Source: Bacteroidota bacterium (lineage in GTDB: Bacteria; Bacteroidota; Bacteroidia; CAIKAF01). Taken from it: DNA of 36,433 bases. The number at the start of each line of letters is the position of its first letter. Position 1 is the first letter of the stretch. This document shows positions 1-26,150 of this stretch, in pieces. The notes under the pieces are model-generated. The model was not told the DNA's origin and made no database searches. It saw only the letters and a list, made by a program, of their open reading frames with translations. The position numbers and the translations under genes were made by a program. Location: assembly GCA_016866335.1 (NCBI GenBank), contig VGMT01000022.1, forward strand, positions 1-36,433, read 5' to 3'.

Positions 1-348
1 AAAAACCGAGCCGCAACAGCCATAGCCCCATATATTCTTGAATGAGTGGCCAAAGCCACAACCACCCCCATTCGTGCATTCCTGGCTAAAAACCGAGCCG
101 CAACAGCCATAGCCCCATATTTTCCTGAATGAGTGGCCAAAGCCAAAGCCACACCCATTCGTGCATTCGTGGCTAAAAACCTACCCGCAAAAACCATAGC
201 CCCATATTTTCCTGAATGGGTGGCCAAAGCCACAACCACCCCCATTCGTGCATTCCTGGCTAAAAACCTACCCGCAAAAACCATAGCCCCATCTTTTCTT
301 GTATGAGTGGCCAAAGCCACAACCACACCCATTCGTGCATTCCTGGCT
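1..348 (+). repeat. Tandem array of four 87-bp units (body type II)
   Basis: Four units with a period of exactly 87 bp: the AAAAACC that opens each unit starts at 1, 88, 175 and 262, and the next copy at 349 breaks off. Each unit ends in ATTCGTGCATTCGTGGCT (or CCTGGCT) and has a body of type AAAAACC(G/T)A...CATAGCCCCATATT...GTGGCCAAAGCCAC. The array may continue left of the window. It lies downstream of the arginine decarboxylase 3' end. It is homologous in layout and body to the array at 9.81-10.16 kb. It is not CRISPR, because the whole unit is conserved. Confidence 0.95.
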
Positions 349-564
349 AAAAAACTAGACGCTGATAGCAACAGACTTCCGGGTTTTTTCAAAATCCCTC
401 TGCAATCCACGATTTTACTAAGAAAAAATTTGGGCTTGGGTATTAAAATCCGGAAGACAGGAAAATCCGACTTCCAGTTTCCATCATTTCGTTTTTTGCT
501 ATGTATTCAGCTCAGAGTCTTATCCTCCGAATACCTCACCTTTCTTCTTACGAACTAGCTCAGG
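349..564. other. Intergenic, no gene seen
   Basis: AT-rich spacer between the repeat array and the end of arginine decarboxylase. The open frame starting at 307 begins inside the repeat and shows no recognisable protein features. A short inverted pair CTTCCGG/CCGGAAG about 70 bp apart is too weak to call a terminator. Confidence 0.6.
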
Positions 565-9231: not shown

Positions 9232-9778
9232 GCGCCGGGAATGCAGGAATGGTATGTTTTGGGGGCGAGATTGGGGTGGTGTTCATAAATGGTGGTTATT
9301 GGAAGTGCGTTAAAAAGGTAGCCACGAATGCACGAATGGTATGTTTTGGGGGCGAGATTGGGGTGGTGTTCATAATTGGTGGTTATTAGAAAGGCGTTAT
9401 CAGGGTAGCCACGAATGCACGAATGGTTTGTTGTGTTGGCTAGATTGGCGGGGTATTCATAATTGGTGGTTATTGGAAATGCGTTAAAAAGGGTAGCCAC
9501 GAATGCACGAATGGTATGTTGTGTTGGCTAGATTGGAGGGGTATTCATAATTGGTGGTTATTGGAAATGCGTTAAAAAGGGTAGCCACGAATGCACGAAT
9601 GGTATGTTTTGGGGGCGAGATTGGGGTGGTGTTCATAAATGGTGGTTATTGGAAGTGCGTTAAAAAGGTAGCCACGAATGCACGAATGGTTTGTTGTGTT
9701 GGCTAGATTGGCGGGGTATTCATAATTGGTGGTTATTGGAAGTGCGTTTTGGGGTAGCCACGAATGCAGAAATGGTAT
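9232..9778 (-). repeat. Tandem array, about six 87-bp units plus a degenerate first unit (body type I)
   Basis: TAGCCACG core starts are at 9319, 9406, 9494, 9582, 9669 and 9755, with a degenerate TAGCTTAGCG start at 9232; spacing is 86-88 bp. On the plus strand each unit reads TAGCCACGAATGCACGAAT followed by a body ending in TGGTGGTTATTGGAA(A/G)TGCG. Two body variants are intermixed: TTTTGGGGGCGAGATTGGGG and TTGTGTTGGCTAGATTGG(A/C)G. It is the reverse complement of the array at 25.6-26.15 kb. Confidence 0.95.
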
Positions 9779-9827
9779 GTTTTGGGGGCTTCCAACATAG
9801 CCACAATCCTTCGTGCATTCGTGGCTA
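9755..9827. repeat. Head-to-head junction of the two arrays (73-bp imperfect inverted pair)
   Basis: The last minus-oriented core (TAGCCACGAATGCA... at 9755) and the first plus-oriented core (...TGCATTCGTGGCTA ending 9827) face each other across about 35 bp; their outer 14 bp are perfect inverted repeats. A related joint, with a more decayed left end, occurs at 21133-21205. Confidence 0.8.
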
Positions 9828-10160
9828 AAAACCTAGGCGCAAATGGCACAGCAGCGTATATTCCAGCATGTGTGGCCACAGCCCCAGCCACATTCATTCG
9901 TGCATTCGTGGCTAAAAACCTAGGCGCAAATTGCACAGCAGCGTATATTCCTGCATGTGTGGCCACAGCCCAGCCACACTCATTCGTGCATTCGTGGCTA
10001 AAAACCTAGGCGCAAATGGCACAGCAGCGTATTTTCCAGCATGCGTGGCCACAACCCCAGCCACAATCCTTCGTGCATTCGTGGCTAAAAACCTAGGCGC
10101 AAAAAGCATAACCCCGTATATTCCAGCATGTGTGGCCACAGCCCCAGCCACAACAGAGTT
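9809..10160 (+). repeat. Tandem array of about four 87-bp units (body type II)
   Basis: The AAAAACC that follows each GGCT core starts at 9827, 9914, 10000 and 10087 (spacing 87, 86, 87). The body is AAAAACCTAGGCGCAAATGG...GTGGCCACAGCCCCAGCCAC, followed by ATTCGTGCATTCGTGGCT. It is homologous to the array at 1-348. It runs to within about 10 bp of the permease stop codon. Confidence 0.95.
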
Positions 10161-21106: not shown

Positions 21107-21132
21107 CGACGTTTTGGTTGTTTTTTAGCTAA

Positions 21133-21276
21133 GATTGCAGGAATGGTATGTTTTTCAGGCTACTAACACAGCCACAATCATTCGTGCATTCGTGGCTAAA
21201 AACCTAGACGCAAATAACGTAAGCCCGGCATGCGCCGCAACAGCCATAGCCACAACCATTCGTGCATTCGTGGCTA
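21133..21276 (+). repeat. Short repeat cluster, one and a half units with head-to-head start
   Basis: It starts with a decayed minus-oriented core (TAGCTAAGATTGCAGGAATGG), then two plus-oriented cores ending near 21200 and 21276, separated by a shortened type II body (AAAAACCTAGACGCAAATAACG). The first 75 bp resemble the array junction at 9755-9827. It fills the gap between lspA and the GxxExxY gene. Confidence 0.85.
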
Positions 21277-21687
21277 ACTACAAAACAATGCGCTTGTAAT
21301 TCATTTTCAATTCTCCAAAGTTCACAATTAACGCCAACCGATTACCTGAAACCTTTAGGTAATTTATAGCCTGAGCTACAAACTCATCTGGTATTGTTTG
21401 AACAGCCTTTACTTCTAAAATTATTTTATCCATCACCACAAAATCAGCATAAAACCTATGGGGCAATATTATCCCCTTGTAATTTACCTCGTATTGCTTT
21501 TCTCGTTCATAGCTTATGTTGGCCTTTTTAAGTTCATATTCAATCGCATCTTTATAAACAATTTCAGGAAAACCCGCCCCCAGGTTATTGTGAACTTCAA
21601 TGCAAATTCCAATAAGCTTAAAACACTCCTCTGTGTAAATTATATCTTTCATTGGCGCCCTTAATTTAGCCACAAATGCAGGAATGG
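21256..21687 (-). mobile_element. Candidate 432-bp cassette: GxxExxY gene between inverted core repeats
   Basis: The left end (21256-21276) contains ATTCGTGCATTCGTGGCTA. The right end (21667-21687), reverse complemented, contains ATTCCTGCATTTGTGGCTA; the 21-bp ends match at 19 positions. Inside is only the GxxExxY gene, whose stop is 1 bp from the left end and whose start is 14 bp from the right end. No target-site duplication was seen. Mobility is inferred from the structure only. Confidence 0.5.
21278..21652 (-). CDS. GxxExxY family protein (PD-(D/E)XK nuclease-like)
   Basis: A 124-aa product with the family-naming motif GFPEIVY (28-34). Further on are YADFVV (D70), ILEVKAV (E80, K82) and a downstream Q94 in FVAQAINYL, a D...ExK...Q pattern matching the PD-(D/E)XK nuclease core. 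The biochemical role of the family is not established. I chose the ATG at 21652 (MKDIIYTEECF); seven extra residues in the longer frame come from repeat sequence. The gene is tightly enclosed by inverted copies of the 19-bp core found in the large arrays. This suggests that gene and repeat belong together. Confidence 0.85.
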   Translation of the reverse strand: MKDIIYTEECFKLIGICIEVHNNLGAGFPEIVYKDAIEYELKKANISYEREKQYEVNYKGIILPHRFYADFVVMDKIILEVKAVQTIPDEFVAQAINYLKVSGNRLALIVNFGELKMNYKRIVL

Positions 21688-21708
21688 TATTTCCTGCTGG
21701 CTAATTGC

Positions 21709-22680
21709 TTATAATTTTAACCAGGAATTCAGGAATGATTTTGCCTTGCCGGCTTTTAACCCCAGCAAAATAGAATACCCAAGACCAAAGCGCTGCACTT
21801 GCGTGTACCGAACAGGTACAGCATTAAAGGCGCGGTTCCGCGCCTCTATGCCCTCCAACATACTACCCTCAAAATCAAAAATTAACCCCATCGACAGGGC
21901 TTTCTTTATGCAGGCATCGTACAGCAAATACTCCGAATTCTGCCTCCGCCCCTCTTCGGTAGAACTCCCCAATATCAAATAGCAGGCCTGCGAATCACAT
22001 ACGCAGGCGGCCGCCGATACCACTCGGCCCTCTTTGTCTTTGGCCTGCAATAAAAATCCCGCCCCCCTCGCTCGAATCGCTTCTACCACCCGTTGTATTG
22101 CCTCATTGGAATAAGGACTCTGAACCTTTTTACGCTCAAACGGCGCCTGCACAATCTGCAGCAAGGCTTCGGTTGATTCTAAATCTTCTATGCGAAGTCC
22201 AAGTTCTTCGGCTTTTCGAATGTTTTTCCTGGCCTGAGCCGAGGGTACATGGTTTTCGGTCGGATAAATTCGAAAGGTGTAGCGCGTCTGTAAGGCATAC
22301 CCATGCCAATAAAAAGGCAGAACATAGTCGGTTTCAGGACTCAGCCTCAACACATGGGCATGGCAGCTGGGCAACCCGCTCAGCAAGGCCTCGATGCCCT
22401 TTTTTTGCATGGAAAGCTGCTGGTGCATATCTGAGGGCTGCCAGTTAACAATCATCAAAGGGAAAAAGGGACTGAGCGGCGGCATTTCAAAGCGGGTCAA
22501 GCCCCATTTTTTTACCTTTCGGTAAGGCAATGCTGCATGTATTTGGTCGTTGGTATTCCACAACTGTACCTCCCAGCCGTTTTCTCCGCAAACGGCATCG
22601 AGCCACCAAGGCTGAGCAAACACCGACAAATCGGTCTGTTCGGCGCAAAAGGTTCTGTACCTATCTTGAGACTTAGACAT
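21709..22680 (-). CDS. FemAB/GNAT-like acyltransferase (BioF2-type), function unknown
   Basis: The 323-aa cytoplasmic protein has two GNAT-like halves, as in FemAB-related proteins. The N-terminal part has FAQPWWLDAVCGENGWEV and ALPYRKVKKWGLTRFEMPPLSPF. The C-terminal part has RKNIRKAEELGLRI, GRVVSAAACVCDSQACYLILGSS, a YLLYDACIKKALSMGLIFDFEGSM helix-strand pair and KAGKAKSFL. The substrate is unknown; peptidoglycan, polysaccharide or an amine are all possible. The last nine codons overlap a sequence 16/20 identical to the TAGCCACGAATGCACGAATG core. Folded element C lies 98 bp upstream. Confidence 0.7.
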   Translation of the reverse strand: MSKSQDRYRTFCAEQTDLSVFAQPWWLDAVCGENGWEVQLWNTNDQIHAALPYRKVKKWGLTRFEMPPLSPFFPLMIVNWQPSDMHQQLSMQKKGIEALLSGLPSCHAHVLRLSPETDYVLPFYWHGYALQTRYTFRIYPTENHVPSAQARKNIRKAEELGLRIEDLESTEALLQIVQAPFERKKVQSPYSNEAIQRVVEAIRARGAGFLLQAKDKEGRVVSAAACVCDSQACYLILGSSTEEGRRQNSEYLLYDACIKKALSMGLIFDFEGSMLEGIEARNRAFNAVPVRYTQVQRFGLGYSILLGLKAGKAKSFLNSWLKL

Positions 22681-22778: not shown

Positions 22779-22921
22779 GCGGCAGGGATTGACGAGGCTA
22801 CCCCGCAAGGGTGCCGAAGCCTGGCCCTCTAGGTGCGGAGGCGACTTCAGGAGCCCCCGCAAACCAGCTGGGCCAGACTTTCGGCAACCGCGGAGTAGCC
22901 CGGAAAGCCCGGCAGCCGCCC
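22779..22921 (-). repeat. 143-bp folded interspersed element, copy C
   Basis: Minus strand, from GGGCGGCTGCCGGGCTTTCC to GTCAATCCCTGCCGC. Stem 2 is GGCTAC-TCCGC/GCGGG-GTAGCC, differing from copy A (GGTTGT/GCAACC) by paired changes. It lies in the gap between the divergent FemAB-like and purL genes. Confidence 0.92.
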
Positions 22922-25592: not shown

Positions 25593-26150
25593 CGTTCGTG
25601 GCTACCCTTTTTAACGCCTTTCTAATAACCACCAATTATGAATACCCCGCCAATCTAGCCAACACAACAAACCATTCCTGCATTCGTGGCTCCCCTTTTT
25701 AACGCCTTTCTAATAACCACCCATTATGAATACCCCGCTAATTTAGCCAACACAACAAACCATTCGTGCATTCGTGGCTACCCTTTTTAACGCCTTTCTA
25801 ATAACCCCCCATTATGAATACCCCGCCAATCTAGCCAACACAACAAACCATTCGTGCATTCGTGGCTACCCTTATTACGCCTTTCTAATAACCACCGATT
25901 ATAAATACCCCGCCAATTTAGCCAACACAACAAACCATTCGTGCATTCGTGGCTACCCTTATAACGCCTTTCTAATAACCACCAATTATGAATACCCCGC
26001 CAATCTAGCCAACACAACAAACCATTCGTGCATTCGTGGCTACCTTTTTAACGCCTTTCTAATAACCACCCATTATGAATACCCCGCCAATCTAGCCAAC
26101 ACAACATACCATTCGTGCATTCGTGGCTACCCTTTTTAACGCCTTTCTAA
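25586..26150 (+). repeat. Tandem array of six 87/88-bp units (body type I)
   Basis: GCT(A) core ends start at 25601, 25689, 25777, 25865, 25952, 26039 and 26126 (spacing 88, 88, 88, 87, 87, 87). The body is CCCTTTTTAACGCCTTTCTAATAACCACC...CCGCCAATCTAGCCAACACAACAAAC. It is the inverse orientation of the array at 9.23-9.78 kb. The last partial unit runs into the T-tract of the next terminator. It sits between convergent purL and the PKD gene. Confidence 0.95.

Follow-up and report, generated by a model that had tools for sequence, protein, structure and literature searches.

The window analyzed here, a 36,433-nucleotide stretch of DNA from a Bacteroidota bacterium, contains a GxxExxY gene at positions 21278–21652 of the minus strand (ATG at 21652, stop codon TAG at 21278–21280). 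The gene encodes a 124-amino acid Cas4/RecB-like PD-(D/E)XK nuclease in which the family invariants are intact, and its neighbors are lspA and one gene without an NCBIfam match. The first-pass annotation placed the gene between 21-bp inverted cores that match at 19 of 21 positions, with gaps of 14 bp on the start side and 1 bp on the stop side. Both the cores, located at 21256–21276 (CCATTCGTGCATTCGTGGCTA) and 21667–21687 (TAGCCACAAATGCAGGAATGG), and the gaps were found as described, and when placements in the window were drawn at random, a comparably good inverted repeat at the same geometry occurred in only 2 of 3000. The core copy 3′ of the gene (CATTCGTGCATTCGTGGCT, minus strand) lies within an imperfect palindrome at 21246–21279, and the copy 5′ of the gene (AGCCACAAATGCAGGAATG, plus strand, two mismatches to the core) is part of a hairpin at 21664–21708 (−11.1 kcal/mol, z −3.8). 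Past the 3′ end of the gene, a second intact core (21179–21197, minus strand) is located in a hairpin at 21125–21200 (z −4.6); this stretch is a fragment with homology to the center of a core array (9755–9915). Past the 5′ end there is a degenerate core with four mismatches (21719–21737, plus strand). The two flanks of the gene fold separately as hairpins (z −2.3 to −4.6).

The same core is the building block of arrays of 87-bp units elsewhere in the window. One array, at 9239–10153, contains plus-strand cores followed by minus-strand cores in a convergent arrangement, another (25595–26150) contains minus-strand cores, and a third, at the edge of the window (1–353, minus strand), has mostly degenerate cores. 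The same 19-bp core is present in every array of the window, which bears out the earlier statement that array core and flanking core are the same. Open frames run over 121–153 codons across 9239–9789 and 25595–26150; they are likely spurious, as 87 is divisible by three and the arrays can for this reason be read as open frames. In the whole 2.45-Mb genome the core has 161 copies with up to two mismatches, and the reversed control has none. Among the neighboring copies listed, 60 pairs are on the same strand at a distance of ∼87 bp, 11 are convergent and 2 are divergent, one of the divergent pairs being that around the GxxExxY gene itself.

These arrangements change the description of the locus in two respects. 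The ends of the gene-bearing piece are not bare 21-bp sequences; each flank is instead a longer fragment of a core array, with the left flank 80% identical to the array center at 9755–9915 over 161 bp, and the right flank 81–83% identical to array units over ∼42 bp. The 432-bp piece is also not a standard cassette, since its cores face opposite to those of most GxxExxY elements and belong to the flanking hairpin units. This inside-out order is common to just 3 of ∼114 other GxxExxY loci. The window copy is thus an atypical member of its family, with a minority core orientation and with arrays that are tandem expansions, and the window by itself would not have revealed the rule described below. 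The local 87-bp arrays would correspond to a tandemly expanded convergent arm pair, with the window gene located between fragments of them, and this divergent copy may represent a remnant or the outcome of a rearrangement.

The protein encoded in the window matches the TIGR04256 GxxExxY model with 127.7 bits (cut-off 35) and the PF13366 PDDEXK_3 model with 117.9 bits (cut-off 22). Residues D70, E80 and K82 and the GxxExxY residues (E30 and Y33 among the family invariants) are unchanged across 62 aligned proteins, including that of the window. The predicted model (pLDDT 92.7) has a PD-(D/E)XK fold, and its nearest solved fold is that of the Cas4 protein SSO0001 (Foldseek E 1e-4, VIA-align Z 10.0); the structures that follow, with Z of 7–8, are mostly other PD-(D/E)XK nucleases. 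No solved structure was matched by sequence, and weak sequence matches to Cas4 models were obtained (E 1.6e-5). GxxExxY is a Cas4/RecB-like PD-(D/E)XK nuclease with an intact D...ExK active site. It differs from Cas4 in its size (∼120 amino acids) and in the absence of the four conserved iron-sulfur cysteines, with no more than one cysteine nearly invariant among the aligned proteins. In the window, it is accompanied by an inverted repeat pair and not by cas1/cas2, and no CRISPR adaptation genes are located beside it. No HUH/Y1 transposase domain is present either, as PDDEXK_3/GxxExxY is the sole match and the model is of the PD-(D/E)XK type. Assignment to an anti-phage defense family was rejected, because PADLOC gave just weak Cas4 and PDC-M36A matches, and so was assignment to a phage family, with no PHROGs match for the two proteins scanned. 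The dN/dS values of close gene pairs (0.01–0.10) reveal purifying selection in the relatives and indicate that the enzyme is maintained; the window protein itself forms a long branch in the protein tree.

The genome of the window has a single GxxExxY gene. The congeners G005, G004 and G002 have neither the gene nor the cores at the orthologous site, which lies between lspA and the gene that follows it; in G005 (C57:26500–30700), a glycine-rich coding sequence takes the place of the GxxExxY region. A dispersed repeat of ∼122 bp, located at 22779–22900 in the window, has ∼40 or more matches each in G000, G005, G004 and G002 (80–98% identity), and G004 and G002 also have it at their lspA sites. 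Elsewhere in its genome G005 has ∼85 window-type cores and no GxxExxY gene (the cores in G000 and G005 were counted with a pattern in which the second half-site was shortened, and the matches listed are window-type cores). The earlier proposal that the 87-bp arrays may be products of the GxxExxY protein is therefore not supported. In G001 and G003, the gene is found at another location, beside a different, CCACAGATT-like tandem repeat family. There, the orthologous GxxExxY gene is located next to an infB-like gene and has long, degenerate arrays of CCACAGATT-like half-sites on its flanks, repeated in tandem and in same-direction order.

The relationship between gene and repeats was analyzed in a sample of 30 loci from Bacteroidota genomes and 80 loci from an all-prokaryote collection. 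For each locus, the 200 bp upstream of the gene were compared with the 200 bp downstream, with no motif assumed, and the best inverted match was taken as the score, with a threshold of at least 12. Of 112 GxxExxY loci, which come from several phyla, 67 reached this score (60%, which may overstate the rate among diverged members, since the sampled loci are high-scoring members of the family). The corresponding values were 3.1% for 224 neighboring ORFs and 7% for mismatched locus pairs. The flanks of GxxExxY genes are thus enriched for inverted genome-specific cores, as the first-pass annotation had anticipated. Nearly all of the repeats obtained in this way consist of CRCRRA[G/T] half-sites in runs with 8–11 bp spacing, and the motif that emerged without prior assumptions is (TTAA)CCRCRRA[G/T], repeated as tandem half-sites. 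Within 100 bp of the gene the half-sites are polarized, with 196 versus 54 on the plus strand upstream and 206 versus 65 on the minus strand downstream. Merely 6 of ∼114 loci have no half-sites on either side, and half-site repeats are also present at loci from Planctomycetes, Acidobacteria, Verrucomicrobia and Treponema. The type of core tracks the protein tree (43 changes versus 63 when shuffled), which may reflect shared descent rather than recognition. A plasmid search found seven weakly similar GxxExxY genes.

Genes of the TIGR02436 family (S23/four-helix bundle) were used for comparison. They are also small and multi-copy, and several of 30 loci have their own inverted tandem short repeats. 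They encode a different protein family, their half-sites are different ones, for instance TAGTATT, CTAAGAT and TTAGCTATTAGC, and GxxExxY-type cores are absent. Half-sites of the GxxExxY type numbered 10 per 6 kb of flank at TIGR02436 genes versus 163 at GxxExxY genes. The explanation that small multi-copy genes generally have repeat-rich flanks was rejected on this basis, as TIGR02436 genes carry other repeats and lack these. Examples of the inverted tandem repeats within 200 bp of TIGR02436 genes (loci L151–L180) are TAGTATTGAGACAATAGTATT, AAGATNCTAAG and AGCTTTTAGCTGTTGGCTATTAG. TIGR02436 genes and their repeats may constitute a second gene–repeat pairing.

At the level of whole genomes, 152 of the 296 Bacteroidota genomes sampled have the GxxExxY gene, often in multiple copies. 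In the 152 gene-positive genomes, the paired half-site CRCRRAGNNNCRCRRAG has 1334 copies versus 131 for the reversed control, a tenfold excess; in the 144 gene-negative genomes there are 244 copies versus 247 for the control. A net excess of at least 8 was observed in 47 of 152 genomes with the gene and in 0 of 144 without it (P = 4e-16), and when gene presence was shuffled within taxonomic families the observed value was reached in 0 of 5000 permutations. No excess of the CRCRRAGNNNCRCRRAG pattern, the sole pattern used in this test, was found in 74 of the 152 gene-positive genomes, in which the core perhaps differs. Of 247 motif copies in five genomes, just 15 were located 300 bp or less from a listed GxxExxY gene; most copies are thus gene-less, and the excess does not come from the gene flanks themselves. 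When these five genomes were read copy by copy, flanking half-sites were found at most, not all, GxxExxY copies, and paralogues within one genome carried different core types. A chance origin of the association is rejected by the genome control of 0, the locus controls, the genome test and the random placements. The refuting case named in the first-pass annotation, that GxxExxY genes elsewhere show no association with such repeats, clearly fails in view of the flanking repeats and the genome-level dependence.

These data also bear on the possibility that another transposase or recombination moves the arms and that the nuclease gene is a frequent cargo. The G005 cores that occur without the gene are consistent with this explanation, as are the mutually unrelated interiors of the gene-less elements described below. 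It is opposed by the confinement of the motif excess to GxxExxY-positive genomes, by the different repeats of TIGR02436, which imply that the cargo is not interchangeable, and by the lack of any other gene between the arms among the G297 elements that were read. We regard a passenger role for the nuclease as distinctly improbable.

The organization of the repeats is most apparent in genome G297, in which the arm CRCRGAGAACNNGAGNRCRCRGAG has 51 copies (control 0). Forty-two of the 51 arms make 21 convergent pairs, which are 92–176 bp long save one of 480 bp, and this longer pair encloses a GxxExxY gene that encodes 128 amino acids. The other pairs, about 20 in number, are gene-less hairpins with the same ∼38-bp arm. 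The idea that gene-less repeats are relatives of gene-bearing units is thus upheld, both by the shared arm in G297 and by the location of most motif copies more than 300 bp from a listed gene. The gene-less interiors are mostly unrelated to one another and to the gene-bearing element, and in this respect the gene-less elements are unlike simple deletion derivatives. The arms co-vary within an element (22.0 versus 20.7 of 24 positions; 0 of 20000 permutations). Empty sites in relatives, which had been suggested as a check, were found: two gene-less elements and the gene-bearing element of G297 are absent at syntenic places in the congener G301. The gap differences between the two genomes match the element lengths, and at the ∼75% identity of these empty sites exact junctions are not placeable. 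No target-site duplication was detected at 20 G297 elements, for which the empty sites are at the species level (flank match mean 1.0 versus 0.6 for random pairs).

Two further explanations were considered. In the first, the inverted repeats would be intrinsic terminators or RNA-stabilizing hairpins that are unlinked to the protein. The hairpins do lie between or behind genes and their outer flanks are T-rich and A-rich, but such repeats are missing at neighboring genes, the motif depends on the presence of GxxExxY, and Rfam gives no match. We consider this explanation very improbable. A known RNA element was likewise rejected, as Rfam at the gathering score gave no match in the window or in L134, L135, L137 and L193. 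In the second, the repeats would be binding or processing sites of a nuclease useful to the host (in repair, in the maintenance of mRNA 3′ ends or of the chromosome, or in defense-like self marking); their spread would be ordinary, and the enzyme would do no more than act on them. Such a function would fit the very strong purifying selection, the Cas4/RecB-like fold, the high stability of the long G297 hairpins (z −12 to −14) and the terminator-like position of gene-less elements directly behind the stop codons of neighboring genes in two aligned sites. It is harder to reconcile with the variable presence of genes and elements between congeners, with the several paralogues that have different core types in one genome, and with the enclosure of the gene itself by an arm pair. 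A host function of this kind is in our estimation unlikely, albeit less so than a passenger role.

We favor the explanation that GxxExxY is a dedicated nuclease partner of short genome-specific repeats, which acts on its cognate arm and cuts it, with the unit then copied to new sites, and we consider this probable. Several findings weigh against it: the window-type cores of G005 occur without the gene, 74 gene-positive genomes lack an excess of the pattern used, no target-site duplication was detected, the gene-less interiors do not look like simple deletion derivatives, and the window cores have the minority orientation. The partnership of nuclease and repeats rests on their association, its specificity and its dependence at the genome level. 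Binding, cleavage and copying by GxxExxY are at one remove from these observations; we infer cutting and copying from the type of fold, from the conservation of an intact active site and from the pattern of presence and absence. The unit consists of the nuclease gene between inverted arms, each arm comprising two to four CRCRRA[G/T] half-sites placed 8–11 bp apart and usually starting with TTAACC. Gene-less pairs of the same arm, which form long intergenic hairpins, would be non-autonomous copies. The stand-alone Cas4/RecB-type enzyme would recognize the cognate arm either in duplex form or as a hairpin, extruded or single-stranded, and would cut at the recognized arm, and repair would copy the cut unit into new intergenic sites. 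A broader proposal, that GxxExxY proteins are the mobilizing enzymes of an independently evolved class of repeats, in which a stand-alone Cas4-like nuclease cuts its own inverted half-site arms and spreads them along with their gene-less hairpins, without a transposase or integrase, in Bacteroidota and at least several other phyla, is more tentative, and we rate it somewhat below even.

The closest parallel is provided by the RAYT/REP/REPIN systems, in which transposase genes are flanked by inverted repeats, hairpin doublets show compensatory changes, the segments between repeats are not related to one another, and the abundance of the repeats goes with that of the gene (PMC2817692, PMC3116915). 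As in RAYT/REP/REPIN/BIME systems, a single small gene is flanked by inverted genome-specific repeats, and the gene-less, mostly intergenic hairpin doublets with co-varying arms (the 21 convergent G297 pairs) resemble REPINs. Inter-repeat segments without homology, array expansions and an abundance tied to the gene are further similarities to RAYT/REP. However, RAYT is an HUH/Y1 single-strand transposase of the IS200/IS605 group, whereas GxxExxY is a PD-(D/E)XK nuclease; as an enzyme of an unrelated superfamily, GxxExxY is not a RAYT, and its mode of action would resemble that of a RAYT provided that the inferred steps are correct. The repeats also differ: a single REP forms an imperfect palindrome, whereas most GxxExxY arms consist of direct half-sites in tandem, for which the opposite arm is the sole pairing partner. 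Consensus arms have this tandem direct form, yet each flank of the window gene folds alone. MITEs are similar in that short gene-less elements share terminal inverted repeats with a gene-bearing copy of the same genome and in that empty sites occur in relatives, but here there is no DDE transposase, no target-site duplication was found and the interiors are not deletion derivatives.

In the open-access literature, to which the search was confined (subscription papers and preprints were outside its scope), GxxExxY receives passing mentions only, and no earlier report of its association with repeats was found. A gene located between its own inverted repeat, together with scattered gene-less copies, suggests a self-spreading repeat system with an enzyme not previously tied to one. 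The cognate DNA partner makes a family of unknown function testable with a defined substrate. If the nuclease spreads the arms, a REP/RAYT-like system would have arisen from an unrelated enzyme, and many short intergenic repeats of environmental bacteria (CCACAGAG-, CCGCAAAG-, CCACGGAG- and related types) would be explained.

The interiors of some G297 gene-less elements have features of their own. In element L184 (C2:200098–200227), the arms enclose an apparent complete bidirectional intrinsic terminator, AAATAGCTGGTGACCAAAGTAGTCACCAGCTATTTTT. In L136, L138 and L188, the enclosed sequence includes TTAGCATTTAGCTATTAGC-like stretches similar to the repeats found next to TIGR02436 genes, an arrangement suggestive of one repeat family nested within the other.
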